A DNA stretch of 62,967 nucleotides from an uncultured Acidobacteriota bacterium. Its GTDB lineage: Bacteria > Acidobacteriota > Terriglobia > Terriglobales > Acidobacteriaceae. The stretch is taken from assembly GCA_903873705.1 (NCBI GenBank), contig CAIQPK010000020.1:1-62967 (forward strand). The letters run 5' to 3'. Positions 29,367-35,462 of this stretch are shown piece by piece; positions within the stretch are counted from its first letter, which is position 1; the number at the start of each line of letters is the position of its first letter. The notes under the pieces are model-generated. The model ran no database searches, was not told the DNA's origin, and worked only from the letters and a program-made list of their open reading frames with translations. A program made the position numbers and the translations under genes.

Positions 29367-30029
29367 ATGTGGGTGAAGATTTGTGCGACTACGAATTTGG
29401 AAGACGCGCTGCTGGCTGTTGAGGCGGGCGCGGATGCGGTGGGGTTCGTGTTTGCGGCGAGCAAGCGGCAGGTGACGGCGGAGCAGGTGGCGGCGATAAC
29501 GGCGCATTTGCCTGCGGGTGTGAGCAAGGTTGGGGTGTTTACCGCGACCGATGCTGCGGAAATATTGGCGCAGGCGGGGATGGCGGGGCTCGATGTTGTG
29601 CAGCTGCATAGCGTCTTCAATGCAGGTTTGATTGAGGCCGTGGCGGGTGCGGGTCTTAGGGCGCTGCAGGTGATCGATGTGCCGGCGGAGGCGGGTGCGG
29701 ATGAGATCCGAGCGAGCCTGGTGGAGGCTCTGCAGCATCCTCAGGTGTACGCGGTGCTGCTGGATGCGTCGCATGGCGGGCACTCGGGCGGGACCGGGAA
29801 GACATTTGACTGGGAACGGATGGCTGGCGCGGTGAGAGAGGCTGAGAGCGCAACCGGCGGGCGAGTGGTGATTGCGGGTGGACTTCGGCCGGAGAATGTC
29901 GGGCTGGCGATTGTGAGGTTTGAGCCGTGGGGCGTGGACGTGGCCAGCGGTGTCGAGGCAGTGCCTGGGAAAAAGGATCCGAGCCGGGTAAAGGCTTTCA
30001 TTTCAGCAGCGAGGGGCGTGGTCCCTTAA
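29367..30029 (+). CDS. trpF: Phosphoribosylanthranilate isomerase
   Basis: The 220-aa TIM barrel carries out the Amadori rearrangement before TrpC. Catalytic Cys6 lies in VKICATTN and the general-acid Asp in LLDASHGGHSGGTGKTFDW. The phosphate site VVIAGGLRPENV and GVDVASGVE are present. GAGGTGAG lies upstream of the ATG. It ends the trpCF unit; the next genes are on the opposite strand. Confidence 0.95.
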   Translation: MWVKICATTNLEDALLAVEAGADAVGFVFAASKRQVTAEQVAAITAHLPAGVSKVGVFTATDAAEILAQAGMAGLDVVQLHSVFNAGLIEAVAGAGLRALQVIDVPAEAGADEIRASLVEALQHPQVYAVLLDASHGGHSGGTGKTFDWERMAGAVREAESATGGRVVIAGGLRPENVGLAIVRFEPWGVDVASGVEAVPGKKDPSRVKAFISAARGVVP

Positions 30030-30036
30030 ACACGGA

Positions 30037-30054
30037 AGCCCGCCGTGGCGGGCC
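30037..30054. terminator. GC-rich hairpin between trpF and small secreted gene
   Basis: GCCCGCC / GGCGGGC hairpin with a 2-nt tip just after the trpF stop and just past the stop of the convergent 51-residue gene. On the minus strand it is followed by TTCCGTGTTT, a weak U-tract. Confidence 0.6.
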
Positions 30055-30078
30055 TGAGTGGCTAGACATCCTGGCGCG

Positions 30079-30234
30079 TTATTTGTGCGGGAGGATGGCG
30101 TGGGAACGCATTTTGGGACTGCGGTCGTGCGGTGCACTGACGTGGGATTTAATGCCACCCGGAGTGGATGGCGCTGCCTGCGCGGCAACGGTGGTAAGCA
30201 ATGCCAGAGCGACGATGGTGGCGATTCGTTTCAT
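30079..30234 (-). CDS. Small secreted peptide, 51 residues
   Basis: A short gene that length filters would miss. ATG 30234 has a strong GGAGG box at 7 nt. The product starts MKRIATIVALALLTTVAAQA, a textbook signal peptide, leaving about 31 mature residues rich in Ser, Pro, His and Lys and ending ILPHK. It sits downstream of two glycine-zipper genes on the same strand, though a terminator at 30303-30333 lies between. Function unknown. Confidence 0.7.
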   Translation of the reverse strand: MKRIATIVALALLTTVAAQAAPSTPGGIKSHVSAPHDRSPKMRSHAILPHK

Positions 30235-30302
30235 AAACGGCCCTCCTGATCAATCACGTATCTGATTGCGGTACTGGATTGCACGATGCAGGTTTTTCCC
30301 AA

Positions 30303-30333
30303 TAAAAAGAGCAACCGAGGGTTCCGGTTGCTC
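30303..30333 (-). terminator. Intrinsic terminator of glycine-zipper gene
   Basis: On the minus strand, GAGCAACCG and CGGTTGCTC form a 9-bp stem followed by TTTTTATT. It lies 52 nt past the stop of the proximal glycine-zipper gene. Confidence 0.85.
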
Positions 30334-30384
30334 GAATATGTCGCGTTTCGGGTGGAAACGCAAGAAAATAATGTGTTTTAGCCG

Positions 30385-30699
30385 TTAATAACGCTCTCCG
30401 CGTTCCCGTTCGCGCACATCGCGGTCTTTGCGGGCCTTGTTGGCGAGCAAGCCACCGCCTGCGCCTACTCCGGCACCGATGATCGCGCCCTTGGGACCGC
30501 CGAGCAGGCCACCGACTACGGCTCCGCCTACGGCTGAGCCGCCGACGATCTTGGCCTTGGTGTGATGACGGGCGTCGTGGCGACGCTGAATTTCGCGCTG
30601 ACGCTCATGCTCGCGATAGCTGGTGTATTGAGCCGACGCGGCGAGGGGAAGCATCATCGTCGCGAGAACTGCGGTAGCTGAAAGGGATTTGAGGGTCAT
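30385..30699 (-). CDS. Glycine-zipper exported protein, paralogue A
   Basis: The 104-aa protein has a signal peptide (LATMMLPLAASAQ), a His/Arg/Glu-rich spacer (EIQRRHDARHHTKAK) and a glycine-zipper transmembrane hairpin. The zipper reads IVGGSAVGGAVVGGLLGG...GAIIGAGVGAGGGLLANKAR. The tail is charged. Such proteins insert in the outer membrane as helical hairpins; function is unclear. It shares the whole KAKIVGGSAVGGA block with the gene immediately upstream, so the two are a tandem duplication of identical length. Confidence 0.82.
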   Translation of the reverse strand: MTLKSLSATAVLATMMLPLAASAQYTSYREHERQREIQRRHDARHHTKAKIVGGSAVGGAVVGGLLGGPKGAIIGAGVGAGGGLLANKARKDRDVRERERGERY

Positions 30700-30760
30700 G
30701 GCCGTACTCCTGAGTGTGACGATGCCGGGCCGAGGGTCAGGCCCGGCTGGATTTGAGAGG

Positions 30761-31075
30761 TTAGCGTGATTCCGGCGACGCGTACTTTTCGCGCTGGTGG
30801 ATCGCGTGGTGCTTGCGGATGTGGTTGGCTACGAGGCCGCCACCGGCACCGACACCGGCACCGACGAGGGCGCCTGCGGGGCCGCCGACCTTGGCACCGA
30901 TAAGGGCGCCGCCAACGGCCGAGCCGCCGACAATCTTGGCCTTGTTGTGGTGGTGGGCGTCGTGGCGTTCGACCTGCGCGCGGGCATCTTCGTGCGATTC
31001 CTGGGCGAGAACACTGAGGGGCATGGAGAATACTGCGGCGCTGAGCGCGACTGCTGCAAACTTGTTGAGCTTCAT
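30761..31075 (-). CDS. Glycine-zipper exported protein, paralogue B
   Basis: The 104-aa protein has the same layout as its downstream neighbour: signal peptide ending VLAQ, a His-rich VERHDAHHHNKAK stretch, then the glycine zipper IVGGSAVGGALIGAKVGG...GALVGAGVGAGGGLVANHIR. The membrane hairpin is conserved, while the N-terminal mature part and the tail have diverged. It starts 140 nt from the divergent trpB leader, so the gap between them holds both promoters. Confidence 0.82.
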   Translation of the reverse strand: MKLNKFAAVALSAAVFSMPLSVLAQESHEDARAQVERHDAHHHNKAKIVGGSAVGGALIGAKVGGPAGALVGAGVGAGGGLVANHIRKHHAIHQREKYASPESR

Positions 31076-31215
31076 CTGGGCCTCCTGCGATCGTTTACTC
31101 CCGATCGCTTGTGTGTATGTCCGATGCGCGGCTTTGTGCGAATAGATGCATTAGATAAAAGAATTTCGCGGGCAACCCTTGTCGTGAAAGGGGCGGCGGG
31201 TGTAAGGTGGAAGCC

Positions 31216-31287
31216 ATGCGTGTGTGCTTCAGCCCGAGCTTGTTTACGTTCCGCTACTGGCCTACAGTAGCGGCCACGGCGGACTGA
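31216..31287 (+). CDS. trpB leader peptide with Phe-Thr-Phe-Arg-Tyr-Trp
   Basis: A 23-codon frame has its own AAGGTGG ribosome binding site 5-6 nt upstream. It contains aromatic residues F5, F10, F12, Y14 and W15 (FTFRYW), with Pro16 right after the tryptophan, and stops at TGA 31287. The Tyr-Trp codons overlap the 5' arm of a perfect 9-bp hairpin, and an intrinsic terminator lies 46 nt after the stop. This is the layout of a transcription-attenuation leader. A single Trp codon is few for a classical trp leader, so sensing of several aromatics or nascent-peptide arrest is also possible. Confidence 0.65.
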
Positions 31288-31366
31288 GCCTCGCTGACGA
31301 AACTCTCAGCAAGGAAACTCAAAGAACCCACCGAGCCGCGACAGCAACTGTCGGGGCTTTTGTTTT
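31251..31366 (+). promoter_or_regulatory. Putative transcription attenuator upstream of trpB
   Basis: Three nested elements are visible. First, CCGCTACTG (31251-31259) pairs perfectly with CAGTAGCGG (31265-31273) over the leader's Tyr-Trp codons. Second, CCTcGCTGA pairs with TCAGCaAGG (31289-31315). Third, an intrinsic terminator AGCCgCGACAG / CTGTCGgGGCT (31334-31358) ends in TTTTGTTTT. GCGGC at 31270-31274, freed when the first hairpin is blocked by a stalled ribosome, can pair with GCCGC at 31335-31339 in the terminator's 5' arm. That gives a possible antiterminator. The pairing scheme is by eye, not computed. Confidence 0.65.
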
Positions 31367-31397
31367 GCGCGCTAGGCGAGCAGTAGATGGAGAAGCG

Positions 31398-32645
31398 ATG
31401 AGCGTTGGTCAGTTGACGAGTCCGATGGTGGCACCGAGCACTTCGACGCCGGGCCGGTTTGGCGTGTACGGCGGACGGTATGTTCCGGAGACGTTGATGG
31501 CGGCGCTGCTGGAGCTGGATGCGGCGTATGAAGCAGCGCAGGCGGACGCGGCGTTCCATGCGGAGCTGGATGGGTTGCTGAAGGATTACGTGGGACGGCC
31601 TACTCCGCTGTACTTTGCGAAGCGGCTGACGGAGACGCTGGGTGGAGCGAAGATTTATCTGAAGCGCGAAGACCTGCTGCATACGGGCGCGCACAAGATC
31701 AACAACGCTTTAGGCCAGGCATTGTTGGCTCGCAGAATGGGCAAACAGCGGATTATCGCCGAGACCGGCGCTGGCCAGCATGGCGTGGCGACGGCGACGG
31801 TGTGTGCGCTGTTTGGGCTGGAGTGCGTGGTGTACATGGGCACCGAGGACATGCAGCGGCAGGAGTTGAACGTCTTCCGGATGCGTCTGCTGGGCGCGGA
31901 GGTGCGCGGGGTGAGTGGCGGATCGGCGACACTGAAGGACGCGATCAACGAAGCGATGCGCGACTGGGTTACGAATGTGCGGTCGACTTTTTATATTCTG
32001 GGGAGCGCGCTGGGGTCGCATCCTTATCCGACGATGGTGCGGGATTTTCATCGCGTGATTTCGAAGGAGAGCAAGCGGCAGATCCTGGAGCACGAGGGCC
32101 GGCTGCCGGATGCGATTGTGGCCTGCGTGGGCGGCGGGTCGAATGCGATTGGCGCGTTCTATGAGTACATCGGCGAGAAGGATGTGGCGCTGATTGGCGT
32201 GGAGGCCGGTGGGCGCGGGACGGCGCTGGGTGAACATGCGGCGCGGTTTCAGAAAAATGGCGGCGGGGTTCCGGGGGTGTTGCAGGGCACGTACTCGTAC
32301 GTGCTGCAGAATGATGCGGGGCAGGTGGCGGCGACGCACTCGGTGAGCGCGGGGCTGGATTATGCGAGCGTGGGACCGGAGCACGCGATGCTGCATGACT
32401 CGGGGCGCGCCACGTATACGTCGGCGACGGATGCGGAGGCGCTGGATGCGGTGCGTGTGCTGTCGCGGACCGAGGGGATTATCCCGGCGTTGGAGAGCGC
32501 GCATGCGGTGGCGGAGGCGATCAAGCTCGCGCCAAAGATGGGTAAGGACAAGATTTTGATGGTGAATGTGTCGGGGCGCGGGGATAAGGATATTGGGATC
32601 ATGACGCGGGAGATGAATTTGAGTGGTGTGGAGGCGAAGGGATGA
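31398..32645 (+). CDS. trpB: Tryptophan synthase beta chain
   Basis: The 415-aa PLP enzyme joins indole and serine. The PLP lysine is K100 in [13 protein letters not shown]; the Gly-rich phosphate loop is [10 protein letters not shown], and [17 protein letters not shown] is also typical. ATG 31398 follows GGAG and begins a normal-length chain; the frame is open further upstream through the leader but that is the attenuator region. Its stop overlaps the next gene's start (ATGA). Confidence 0.97.
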
Positions 32646-33079
32646 AGCATCTTTTCGTCCTAGCTCTTGCGGTGAGCGCTGTTGCGACGCCTCTATGCGC
32701 GCAGACCATCACCGTGCGCCTGCTCGACGGCAAATCCGGCAAGCCGATTACCGATAAGAACATCACCTTTCATTGGAATTCTGACCATTTTGAGGAGAGT
32801 GTCGTTCGCATTGGCAAGGATGGAGTGGGAAAGGTAACCGCTCCGGCAAAGGCAACCGACTTTTTCCTTATGGAGGGACCAAAAGACGGAGATGAACCTT
32901 TTCGCGTTGCGTACTTCGATTGCAACACACCAGCACACAGTCGCAACTCCATTTCTGAGGTGCTTTCTCGTGGCATTGTGCCGGGAAACGAATGCAGCAA
33001 GAGAAGCGCTAAAGCAGAGCCGGGCGTAATCATTTTCTGGGGACTCACGCGCCGCTGGTACGAACCGGACATGCAATAA
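32642..33079 (+). CDS. Secreted protein of unknown function between trpB and trpA
   Basis: The 145-aa protein has a signal peptide ([16 protein letters not shown]). A small beta domain follows ([23 protein letters not shown]), reminiscent of carboxypeptidase-regulatory-like or transthyretin-like folds. Two later cysteines, in YFDCNT and GNECSK, may form a disulfide. The start overlaps trpB by 4 nt, so it is translationally coupled to trpB despite being a secreted product. No role in tryptophan synthesis is evident. Confidence 0.75.
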
Positions 33080-33108
33080 CTGAAAAATCGAAAAGAAATT
33101 GAGAACCG

Positions 33109-33873
33109 ATGCCCATTACGTTTAGTCGCAAACCCGGACTTGTTATTTACTTCACCGCTGGTGATCCTGATCTCGCGACTACGCGGGATATGGCGATTGC
33201 GGCTATCGATAATGGTGCTGAGGTGATTGAACTGGGTGTGCCGTTTAGTGATCCGCTGGCGGATGGGCCGGTGATTCAGCGGGCTTCGGAGCGGGCGGTG
33301 GCGCGGGGGACGCGGCTTTCGGATGTGCTGGGGATCTGTAAGGAGATTCGTGAGGCGCGGCCGGGGGCGGGGATTATTTTGTTCAGCTATCTGAATCCCG
33401 TGGTTCGGTTTGGGATCGAGGCGTTTGGCAAGGCGGCGAAGGCTGCGGGGGCGGATGGGGTTTTGCTGACTGACATGATTGTCGAGGAAGCGGACGAGTA
33501 TCTGCGCGTGATGGCGGCGAATGAGTTGATGCCGGTGTTCCTGGCGGCTCCGACTTCGCCCGATGAGCGGCTGAAGGCTATTGCGGAGAACTCGCGTGGG
33601 TTTGTTTATGCGATTTCGCGGGTGGGCATTACGGGGACGCAGACGGAGCTGGCGGCGGATGCGGCTTCGCTGGTGGCGCGGATCAAGCAGTTCACTACTC
33701 TGCCGGTGGCGCTGGGGTTTGGGATTTCGAATGCGGCGCATGTGGCTGAGGTTGGCAAGTTTGCGGATGCCGCAGTGGTGGGGAGTGCGATTGTCGGGCT
33801 GATTGAGAAGACGCCACAGGATGAGGTGGTAGCGGCGGTGGGGAAGTTTGTGGCGGAGTTGCGTCATGGGTAA
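33109..33873 (+). CDS. trpA: Tryptophan synthase alpha chain
   Basis: The 254-aa TIM barrel cleaves indole-3-glycerol phosphate and channels indole to TrpB. Catalytic Glu and Asp lie in VIELGVPFSDPLADGP and LLTDMI; the phosphate-binding GISNAAHV and VVGSAIV are present. TrpA normally follows TrpB directly; here a secreted-protein gene intervenes with a 29-nt gap before trpA. Confidence 0.96.
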   Translation: MPITFSRKPGLVIYFTAGDPDLATTRDMAIAAIDNGAEVIELGVPFSDPLADGPVIQRASERAVARGTRLSDVLGICKEIREARPGAGIILFSYLNPVVRFGIEAFGKAAKAAGADGVLLTDMIVEEADEYLRVMAANELMPVFLAAPTSPDERLKAIAENSRGFVYAISRVGITGTQTELAADAASLVARIKQFTTLPVALGFGISNAAHVAEVGKFADAAVVGSAIVGLIEKTPQDEVVAAVGKFVAELRHG

Positions 33874-34077: not shown

Positions 34078-34341
34078 ATGGAGATCGCCGACTGGCGGGA
34101 CAAAATCGATTCACTGGATGAGCAGATTGTGCAGATGCTCAACGAACGCGCCGCAGCGGCGATTGCTATTGGCGAGATCAAGCGGCAGAATAGCGCACCA
34201 ATTTATGAGCCGAATCGTGAGAACACGGTTTATGAGCACATCCGCGCCGTCAATCCCGGGCCGCTCAGCGGGGCGCAGGTGCAGGACATTTATGAGCGCG
34301 TGATTGACGTGATGCGGGCGCTGCAACGGCCGAGGGATTAG
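34078..34341 (+). CDS. Chorismate mutase, AroQ type
   Basis: An 87-aa monofunctional all-helical chorismate mutase makes prephenate for phenylalanine and tyrosine. It aligns with the AroQ/PheA N-terminal domain: WRDKIDSLDEQIVQMLNERAAAAIAIGEIKRQ carries active-site R7, R24 and K35, and PIYEPNRE provides the next conserved Arg/Glu. It stands 77 nt upstream of DAHP synthase, and many DAHP synthases form inhibitory complexes with a separate AroQ mutase. The start has GAGGC nearby. Confidence 0.9.
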   Translation: MEIADWRDKIDSLDEQIVQMLNERAAAAIAIGEIKRQNSAPIYEPNRENTVYEHIRAVNPGPLSGAQVQDIYERVIDVMRALQRPRD

Positions 34342-34418
34342 CGAACAGGGATTAGGGATTAGAAAAGCACACGCGACGCCCGGCGTCAGCGAATTAGATA
34401 AGAAGAGGAAACGAAGTG

Positions 34419-35462
34419 ATGATCGTAGCTATGCAGTCCCACGCCACCGATGAGCAGATTCAGAACGTAATTGAGCGGATGGTTGAGCTCGGCTTCAACG
34501 TGCACCGCACTACCGGAGAGACGCAGACGATCCTGGCCGGCGTCGGCACACCGTCGCACTTTGAGGTGACGGAGTTCCAGGTACTTTCGGGAGTGCACCA
34601 GGCTTACCGGATTTCGTCGCCGTACAAGCTGGCGGGGCGCGGGTTCCGTCCGGAGGGCACGCGGATTACGTTCCCCAACGGGCTGGTGATTGGCGGCGAT
34701 GAGATCGTCGTGATGGCGGGGCCGTGTTCGGTCGAGAGCCGCGACCAGATTCGGCTGAGCGCGTCGCAAGTGGCCGCCGCGGGGGCGCGCTTCCTGCGCG
34801 GTGGAGCGTACAAGCCGCGCAGCTCGCCGTACAGCTTCCAGGGCATGGGCGTTGAAGGCCTGAAGATCATGCGCGATGCGGCCGATGAGTATGGCCTGCT
34901 CGTCATCACCGAGGTGATGGAGATTTCGCAGATTGAGCAGATGCTTCCTTACATCGACTGCTTCCAGGTGGGCGCGCGCAACATGCAGAACTTCAACCTG
35001 CTGCGTGAGCTGGGCCAGGTGCGCAAGCCGGTGGCGATGAAGCGTGGCCTGGCGGCGACGATTGAGGAAGTGCTGCTTTCGGCCGAGTACATTCTCTCCG
35101 GCGGCAACTACGACCTGATGCTGGTGGAGCGCGGCATTCGCACGTTTGAGACAGCAACGCGCAACACGATGGACATTTCGGCGATCCCGGTGCTGAAGAA
35201 GCTGACGCATCTGCCGGTGCTGGGCGACCCGTCGCACGGCGTGGGTATTCGCGACTTCGTTCCGCCGATGGCGCTGGCGTCGGTTGCGGCGGGAGCGGAT
35301 GGCTTGCTGATCGAGATGCACCCGAATCCGGATAAGGCGATGTCGGATGGCGCGCAGTCGTTGCGGCCGGAGCAGTTGACGGAGTTGATTGCGAAGCTGC
35401 GCAAGCTGGCGCCGGTGGTTGACCGCAGCATTTCGCCGGCGGTTGACGCTGTGACGGCGTAA
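34419..35462 (+). CDS. aroF: 3-deoxy-7-phosphoheptulonate synthase, type I-beta
   Basis: The 347-aa DAHP synthase is the entry step of the shikimate pathway. The N-terminal ~80 residues form a ferredoxin-like regulatory domain (MQSHATDEQIQNVIERMVELGFNVHRT). The barrel carries GPCSVES, RGGAYKPRSSPYSFQG, KRGLAATIEE and DPSHG metal and phosphate motifs. The regulatory domain implies feedback control by an aromatic amino acid as in Thermotoga-type enzymes. ATG 34419 is preferred to the GTG one codon upstream; GAGGA precedes it. Confidence 0.95.
   Translation: MIVAMQSHATDEQIQNVIERMVELGFNVHRTTGETQTILAGVGTPSHFEVTEFQVLSGVHQAYRISSPYKLAGRGFRPEGTRITFPNGLVIGGDEIVVMAGPCSVESRDQIRLSASQVAAAGARFLRGGAYKPRSSPYSFQGMGVEGLKIMRDAADEYGLLVITEVMEISQIEQMLPYIDCFQVGARNMQNFNLLRELGQVRKPVAMKRGLAATIEEVLLSAEYILSGGNYDLMLVERGIRTFETATRNTMDISAIPVLKKLTHLPVLGDPSHGVGIRDFVPPMALASVAAGADGLLIEMHPNPDKAMSDGAQSLRPEQLTELIAKLRKLAPVVDRSISPAVDAVTA

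Follow-up and report, generated by a model that had tools for sequence, protein, structure and literature searches.

A leader peptide with Phe, Tyr and Trp codons as a predicted attenuator of trpB in Acidobacteriaceae, with relatives before other aromatic amino acid genes

The window, the whole 62,967-nt stretch analysed (contig CAIQPK010000020.1, GenBank assembly GCA_903873705.1), derives from an uncultured bacterium of the family Acidobacteriaceae. trpB, encoding the beta subunit of tryptophan synthase (31398-32645, plus strand; Pfam PALP, E 4.9e-39), is the first gene of the putatively controlled operon. It is followed by an ORF without a Pfam match, trpA for the alpha subunit (33109-33873, plus strand; Trp_syntA, E 6.8e-78), a type II chorismate mutase gene (34078-34341, plus strand; CM_2, E 3.3e-22), a DAHP synthase gene (34416-35462, plus strand; DAHP_synth_1, E 7.3e-76), and an amino-acid kinase gene. 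The chorismate mutase and DAHP synthase genes probably belong to the same operon. DAHP synthase is the first enzyme of the shikimate pathway. The order trpB-trpA-chorismate mutase is repeated at loci L009, L010, L018, L152, and L161, and DAHP synthase follows chorismate mutase at L009 and L010 as well. The ORF between trpB and trpA (32642-33079, plus strand) encodes a product of 145 aa whose start resembles a signal peptide. Upstream of the leader described below are trpC and trpF; between trpF and the leader are two small, similar, glycine-zipper-like ORFs on the opposite strand (30385-30699 and 30761-31075, minus strand), the former with Pfam matches below the cut-off only and the latter with none.

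A leader peptide ORF of 23 codons precedes trpB at 31216-31287 on the plus strand (ATG at 31216, TGA at 31285-31287), and the same frame and pattern recur in relatives. The peptide contains FTFRYW followed by Pro, with a single Trp codon. The candidate control codons are Phe (31243-31245 and 31249-31251), Tyr (31255-31257), and Trp (31258-31260), all on the plus strand. Segments 1 and 2 form a perfect 9-bp hairpin, P1 (plus strand; CCGCTACTG, 31251-31259, with CAGTAGCGG, 31265-31273), which lies over the Arg-Tyr-Trp codons and overlaps both the Tyr and the Trp codon. The core of segment 2, GCGGC (31270-31274, plus strand), is common to P1 and to a possible antiterminator, in which it would pair with GCCGC (31335-31339, plus strand), the core of segment 3. 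The latter is also part of an intrinsic terminator with a U tract (segments 3 and 4; 31334-31366, plus strand), whose arms, AGCCGCGACAG (31334-31344) and CTGTCGGGGCT (31348-31358), form 10 pairs with one G/G mismatch and are followed by TTTTGTTTT (31358-31366). An earlier note, made from the letters alone, had named this ORF, the 9-bp hairpin, the terminator, and the GCGGC/GCCGC pairing, and every one of these elements is present. In comparison with shuffled sequences, none of 200 shuffles folded as well as 31246-31340 (z -3.6). The z value was -2.2 for the terminator stretch (31325-31370) and -1.7 for the hairpin stretch (31240-31300); the entire region 31200-31380 was less striking (z -1.75, with 9 of 200 shuffles equally good). 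A middle hairpin at 31287-31319 in the window was not conserved among the aligned relatives. The comparative support for the window leader, given below, is much stronger than that from folding of the single sequence against shuffles.

A promoter was predicted at 31179-31208 on the plus strand, with TTGTCG (31179-31184), an 18-nt spacer, and an extended TG-TAAGGT (31201-31208); the ATG follows 7 nt on. The pattern TTGnnn-16/19-TAnnnT was found upstream of 90 of the 124 leaders collected in this study, compared with a mean of 4.0 and a maximum of 10 in 100 shuffles. The distance from the end of the -10 element to the ATG was 6-12 nt in 84 of those 90. A stricter consensus scan (9 of 12 matches) detected no promoter in 29500-33500, and a profile of information per column gave a weak signal in front of the ATG. 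Pairing of the leaders with the anti-Shine-Dalgarno sequence equalled that of shuffles (mean -2.5 kcal/mol in both; 22% versus 17% at -4.4 or better). The 116 following genes had a mean of -6.6 kcal/mol, with 89% at -4.4 or better, values which are favoured by taking the best in-frame start. The motif AAGGTGG (31204-31210), which the earlier note had taken as the leader's own ribosome-binding box, overlaps the promoter-like TGTAAGGT. The Shine-Dalgarno reading was rejected, as the motif is not conserved as such a box in relatives and the anti-Shine-Dalgarno energy of the leaders is that of shuffles. AAGGTGG more likely belongs to the -10 element of the predicted leaderless start, which is also the simplest reading because TTGTCG-18-TAAGGT ends 7 nt before the ATG. 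From the placement of the -10 element, by the looser pattern rather than the strict scan, and the lack of a Shine-Dalgarno signal, we infer that the leader mRNA is leaderless.

Of 150 family genomes, 143 gave a TrpB match, a count that takes in weak hits to paralogues. Among 30 trpB loci compared, a homologous leader precedes trpB at 12. The leader is absent where trpF abuts trpB: trpF lies within 500 nt in 15 of the 18 loci without a leader and in none of the 12 with one. The usual peptide pattern before trpB is F-x-F-[TP]-[FY]-R-Y-W-x-[TP]-[VI]-A-A; deviants are ISFIDRYW at L006 and L007 and FWRFTFRYG at L010 and L018. A covariance model, R1, was built from the 12 trpB leaders, the window's own included. 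At E<=0.01, R1 matched 201 of 398 sampled family genomes, often twice per genome. For R2, a wider model made from 62 sequences, the counts were 214 of 397 genomes in the order and 55 of 396 in the phylum. All these counts include some chance matches, because matches weaker than about E 1e-5 (to 0.01) are a mixture of true leaders and chance matches at gene ends. Two of 21 named loci have a trpB leader, those of Acidobacteriaceae MAG_BO262 (L031) and Granulicella sp. bog_405 (L032). Inspection of 17 phylum matches outside the family (19 listed) yielded eight aromatic leaders, one of which (L301) is cut at its start, one likely Cys leader, and eight chance matches. Leaders rich in Phe and Tyr precede chorismate mutase, prephenate dehydratase, or DAHP synthase outside the family (L279, L296-L300, L302, L305). 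In another family of the phylum, a leader reading YYCHYWCACTF and a terminator (L311; G776:C10:228500-231700, minus strand, near 2414-2588) precede a cysteine-synthase-like PLP enzyme (Pfam PALP); this is perhaps a cysteine attenuator.

For classification, 124 leaders (123 places; L009 and L130 are the same place) were picked, from among the matches listed, for score, genus, and second copies, and not by gene; exceptions are L009, L010, L018, and L020, which had been located through trpB, and a few more that lie at known trpB places. Two weak extra model matches (L152 2372-2404 and L188 1866-2035) were dropped from 126, and L210, the same place as L155, was left unclassified. Seven reference proteins, used in a translated search, identified the first gene as trpB at 52 leaders, aroK at 23, DAHP synthase at 36, and chorismate mutase at 13. 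A second leader in the genome of the window lies upstream of aroK, the gene for shikimate kinase (R1 E 4.6e-8). The leader of the window is, as judged from these matches, one of a family that also precedes aroK, DAHP synthase, and chorismate mutase. Near the aroK locus of the same genome, an unrelated Rfam element, Acido-Lenti-1, was matched on contig C9 (L168 3276-3320; 38.9 bits against a gathering score of 37). Early stops were seen in L207, which ends within P1 (RYWFQ, then stop), and in L239, with a stop directly after RY; these are natural variants or sequence errors.

The distance from the start to CGY-TAY is in frame in 106 of 107 leaders. Stops before GCGGC occur in 1 of 121 leaders in the leader frame, versus 68 and 44 in the other two frames, a count that is low partly by construction because the ORF itself was picked. 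The synonymous-substitution signal in the leader frame is weak (synonymous fraction 0.28 in frame 0, 0.15 in frame 1, and 0.25 in frame 2). Covariation was assessed in an alignment of 62 of the 124 leaders, hand-picked for diversity from all four gene classes. P1 and the terminator were paired in 94.7% of cells, and slid versions in at most 57.8%. Two-sided changes in the two stems numbered 68 cells versus 19.2 in shuffles. The covariation score was 0.264 against 0.157, with 0 of 500 shuffles as high, although related sequences can exceed such shuffles without structure. In P1, 4 of 8 pairs showed two-sided changes and 91.5% of cells were paired; in the terminator, five pairs showed such changes and 97.2% of cells were paired. 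RNAalifold recovered both stems unprompted from the chorismate mutase leaders alone. In the aroK leaders, P1 is weak and down to four pairs. GCGGC was found in 121 of 124 leaders and GCCGC in the terminator arm of 122. Covariation is uninformative on this antiterminator core because it is nearly invariant (99.7% of 310 cells paired). The earlier note had proposed a leader-peptide attenuator of trpB and had looked to relatives for a FRYW-like peptide, hairpin, and terminator with compensatory changes. Such changes were seen for P1 and the terminator, and the short frame and the terminator, whose lack of conservation was to speak against the proposal, are both conserved. The proposal is thus borne out by conservation, covariance model, and covariation. 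A further motif, CGATTTA, occurs 5' of P1 in 66 of 124 leaders (for example, L165, L175, and L211) and is absent from the window leader. Arg-Phe is spelled CGA TTT in 76 of 96 cases, and CGA is rare: six genes of the window use it for 6 of their 122 Arg codons. This nucleotide-level constraint may reflect a pause, a slow codon, or an RNA contact.

Codon positions were counted from GCGGC in 121 leaders (three without GCGGC left out). Phe, Tyr, and Trp together make up 48% of codons at -33 to -24 nt, 88% at -15 to -9, 22% at -9 to -3, 2% at -3 to +21, and 6% beyond. Phe accounts for 42% of codons at -33 to -24, Tyr for 24% at -24 to -15, and Tyr plus Trp for 74% at -15 to -9. The trpB leaders have 3.4 Phe and 1.7 Tyr codons on average.

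Ribosome-dependent folding was modelled for 120 of the 124 leaders. In full-length equilibrium folds, the terminator was favoured in nearly all leaders at any ribosome position, as expected if the decision falls during transcription. The E. coli trp leader behaved alike; hence, after these folds were seen, transcripts ending just after segment 3 were chosen, and their partition function was computed with an E. coli-sized footprint barred from pairing. For the window, the antiterminator probability was 0.995 with the ribosome on the Trp codon, 0.12 with no ribosome, and 0.00 with the ribosome at the stop. Across the 120 leaders, the mean was 0.26 with no ribosome, 0.18 at the stop, and 0.92 at the best aromatic codon, the last being a maximum over several codons per leader (above 0.5 in 110). 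At the last aromatic codon alone, which in many leaders is nearer than 12 nt, the mean was 0.42, with only 47 of 120 above 0.5. As a control, the average was 0.66 for aromatic codons, 0.46 for the remaining codons upstream of GCGGC, and 0.08 for non-aromatic codons at GCGGC or beyond it; aromatic codons exceeded the other codons before GCGGC in 104 of 120 leaders. The antiterminator formed with no ribosome in 30 of 120 leaders and with the ribosome at the stop in 21. For the aroK copy of the window's genome, the probability was 0.97 with no ribosome, 0.89 with the ribosome at the stop, and 0.14 with it on the last aromatic codon; the model therefore shows no clean switch for this copy. The E. 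coli trp leader, taken as a yardstick by upstream pairing of segment 3, gave 0.27 with no ribosome, 0.71 at the Trp codons, and 0.05 at the stop. In these models, then, an antiterminator exclusive with P1 and the terminator would be favoured by a stalled ribosome in the window and in the average of the 120 leaders, not in every leader. The worry in the earlier note that the antiterminator segment lies partly under the stalled ribosome does not hold for the Trp codon of the window, where the footprint ends just before GCGGC, but does apply in several relatives, to aromatic codons at less than 12 nt from GCGGC.

We conclude that the trpB leader is very probably a ribosome-mediated transcription attenuator that pools the supply of charged Phe-, Tyr-, and Trp-tRNA. 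The computed basis is the anatomy, its conservation, the covariation of P1 and the terminator, the association with aromatic genes, the placement of codons, and the fold-switch model. Judged by sequence, the hallmarks of the trpL/pheL type appear to be in place: an ORF with control codons, a hairpin over these codons, and a terminator before the first gene. Transcription would begin no more than a few bases upstream of the leader ATG, and translation would proceed from the leaderless 5' end. When aromatics are sufficient, the ribosome would reach the stop codon and cover segment 2; segment 3 would then pair with segment 4, and transcription would terminate before trpB. A ribosome stalled on one of the codons of F-x-F-R-Y-W, presumably in response to a shortage of the respective amino acid, would lie over segment 1 (CCGC...), open P1, and leave segment 2 free. 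Segment 2 would capture segment 3, no terminator would form, and trpB, trpA, chorismate mutase, and DAHP synthase would be expressed. If the leader is not translated, P1 would form and termination would be the default.

The most serious rival, although improbable, is an attenuator of the classical trpL type that senses Trp alone, its Phe and Tyr codons having no sensing role. It agrees with a Trp codon upstream of GCGGC in 51 of 51 trpB leaders, including 44 Trp codons placed precisely at -12 nt, as close as a codon can lie with GCGGC still left free, and with the available part of a report in which tyrosine availability had no effect on the Phe-Tyr-Phe leader AroR of C. glutamicum (PMC11802643). 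However, many Phe and Tyr codons fall in the zone of -30 to -13 nt, where the modelled antiterminator probability at aromatic codons is 0.85-0.87. In addition, the operon also includes chorismate mutase and DAHP synthase, and the leaders of aroK and DAHP synthase share the same build.

The Trp codons differ with the gene controlled. Trp is present in the first 30 residues of 52 of 52 trpB, 23 of 23 aroK, 32 of 36 DAHP synthase, and 0 of 13 chorismate mutase leaders; L229 has a Trp at the C-terminal end. A Trp codon 6-36 nt before GCGGC was found in 51 of 51, 23 of 23, 28 of 34, and 0 of 13, respectively. Chorismate mutase leads only to Phe and Tyr, and in the leaders before its gene Tyr, Phe, Ser, or His takes the place of Trp. 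L275 and L277, Trp-less family leaders missed by the reference search, also precede chorismate mutase, with prephenate dehydratase following in L275. Contrary cases outside the family are L298 and L299, with Trp before chorismate mutase. DAHP synthase leaders without Trp are L223, L224, L236, and L239, and also L281 and L305. On a quick TrpB tree (24 rows; 4 of 28 TrpB proteins, missed by the sequence pattern, left out), the Trp/chorismate mutase pattern takes three changes, one of them forced by well-supported branches. Because of the contrary cases, the Trp-less DAHP synthase leaders, and the one to three independent changes, it is only suggestive that Trp codon content tracks the pathway branch of the controlled gene.

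This distribution fits a reading by codons and not nascent-peptide arrest as in TnaC, in which the FRYW peptide would stall the ribosome in the exit tunnel upon binding of free tryptophan, and which we regard as very improbable. No part of the peptide is more constant among the trpB leaders than Arg-Tyr-Trp, and in the window a Pro comes after the Trp, as arrest might suggest; the constancy of RYW is expected, however, because its codons pair in P1, which counts against arrest. In a TnaC-type arrest peptide, the residues responsible for arrest, Trp and a C-terminal Pro among them, do not vary. The leaders lack this invariance: Trp is followed by P, Y, W, H, R, F, S, D, Q, or C, with Pro unconserved; Trp is absent before chorismate mutase and shifted in the RYG-type trpB leaders; and the number and spacing of aromatic residues vary. 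Of the two options raised in the earlier note, multi-aromatic sensing thus stands, the codon content being aromatic rather than purely Trp, and arrest does not. Scarcely credible, finally, is a ligand-binding riboswitch or other RNA element with an incidental short frame, which would suit the conserved hairpin and terminator and the weak synonymous signal, since no Rfam family reached the gathering score at the leaders of the window and of 11 relative loci (nothing relevant appeared at a relaxed threshold), no conserved unpaired core was seen outside coding or pairing stretches except CGATTTA (not in the window), aromatic codons cluster and their clustering changes with the gene controlled, and in-frame stops before GCGGC are nearly absent, partly by construction. 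A T-box or other Rfam cis-regulatory family was likewise rejected, with no gathering-score match at the leaders of the window and of the 11 relative loci.

The multi-aromatic attenuator resembles E. coli trpL and pheL in its leader ORF with control codons, P1, antiterminator, and terminator, and its fold-switch behaviour is comparable to that of trpL in nearly the same calculation. In contrast to their tandem Trp or Phe codons, Phe and Tyr are mixed here with mostly one Trp, there is no Shine-Dalgarno signal, and one family precedes four kinds of aromatic genes. The AroR leader upstream of aroF in C. glutamicum was reportedly described by Neshat et al. in 2014. AroR is similar in having a Phe-Tyr-Phe leader, a DAHP synthase operon, and attenuation; it belongs to another phylum, and the accessible part of the source mentions neither a Trp nor kindred leaders upstream of trpB, aroK, or chorismate mutase (PMC11802643). 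The trpL leader mRNA of S. meliloti also begins at the ATG and is leaderless but, as far as the available text goes, has Trp control codons, precedes trpE(G), and has trans-acting products (PMC7298713). A leaderless ilvB leader is mentioned for C. diphtheriae in the accessible part of PMC5784534. Actinobacterial trp attenuators share GC-rich conserved complementary triples common to antiterminator and terminator; they have double or triple UGG, the portion available describes no aromatic mixture, and its authors saw no RNA structure conserved in front of operons for phenylalanine or tyrosine (PMC1262725). The "trpB motif" reported from Firmicutes and Fusobacteria is set apart here by its description only, as given in the available part of the source (PMC11109978). 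According to the accessible text of a 2010 survey, almost no predicted attenuator of Acidobacteria had an associated function (PMC2965389). In the open-access literature searched, no description of leader peptides of aromatic genes in Acidobacteria was recognised. Because no such description was found and no Rfam family matched, the leader family is taken as new, and we read the window leader and its relatives as a new multi-aromatic form of ribosome-mediated attenuation.

Acidobacteriota are abundant soil bacteria, and to our knowledge little is known about their regulation of amino acid synthesis. The wider proposal, to which we give an even chance, is that one leaderless family serves as a shared, editable three-input aromatic sensor across the shikimate pathway of Acidobacteriota; any shortage of Phe, Tyr, or Trp would open the operon, and the Trp codons would be edited per branch. 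Because the copies before different enzymes differ in their codons, they would provide a natural series on how attenuators weigh several amino acids. The family also bears on the coupling of leaderless translation to attenuation. If the reading is true, attenuators of Acidobacteria would gain a function, namely feedback control of aromatic synthesis, with three amino acids sensed jointly by one leader peptide.
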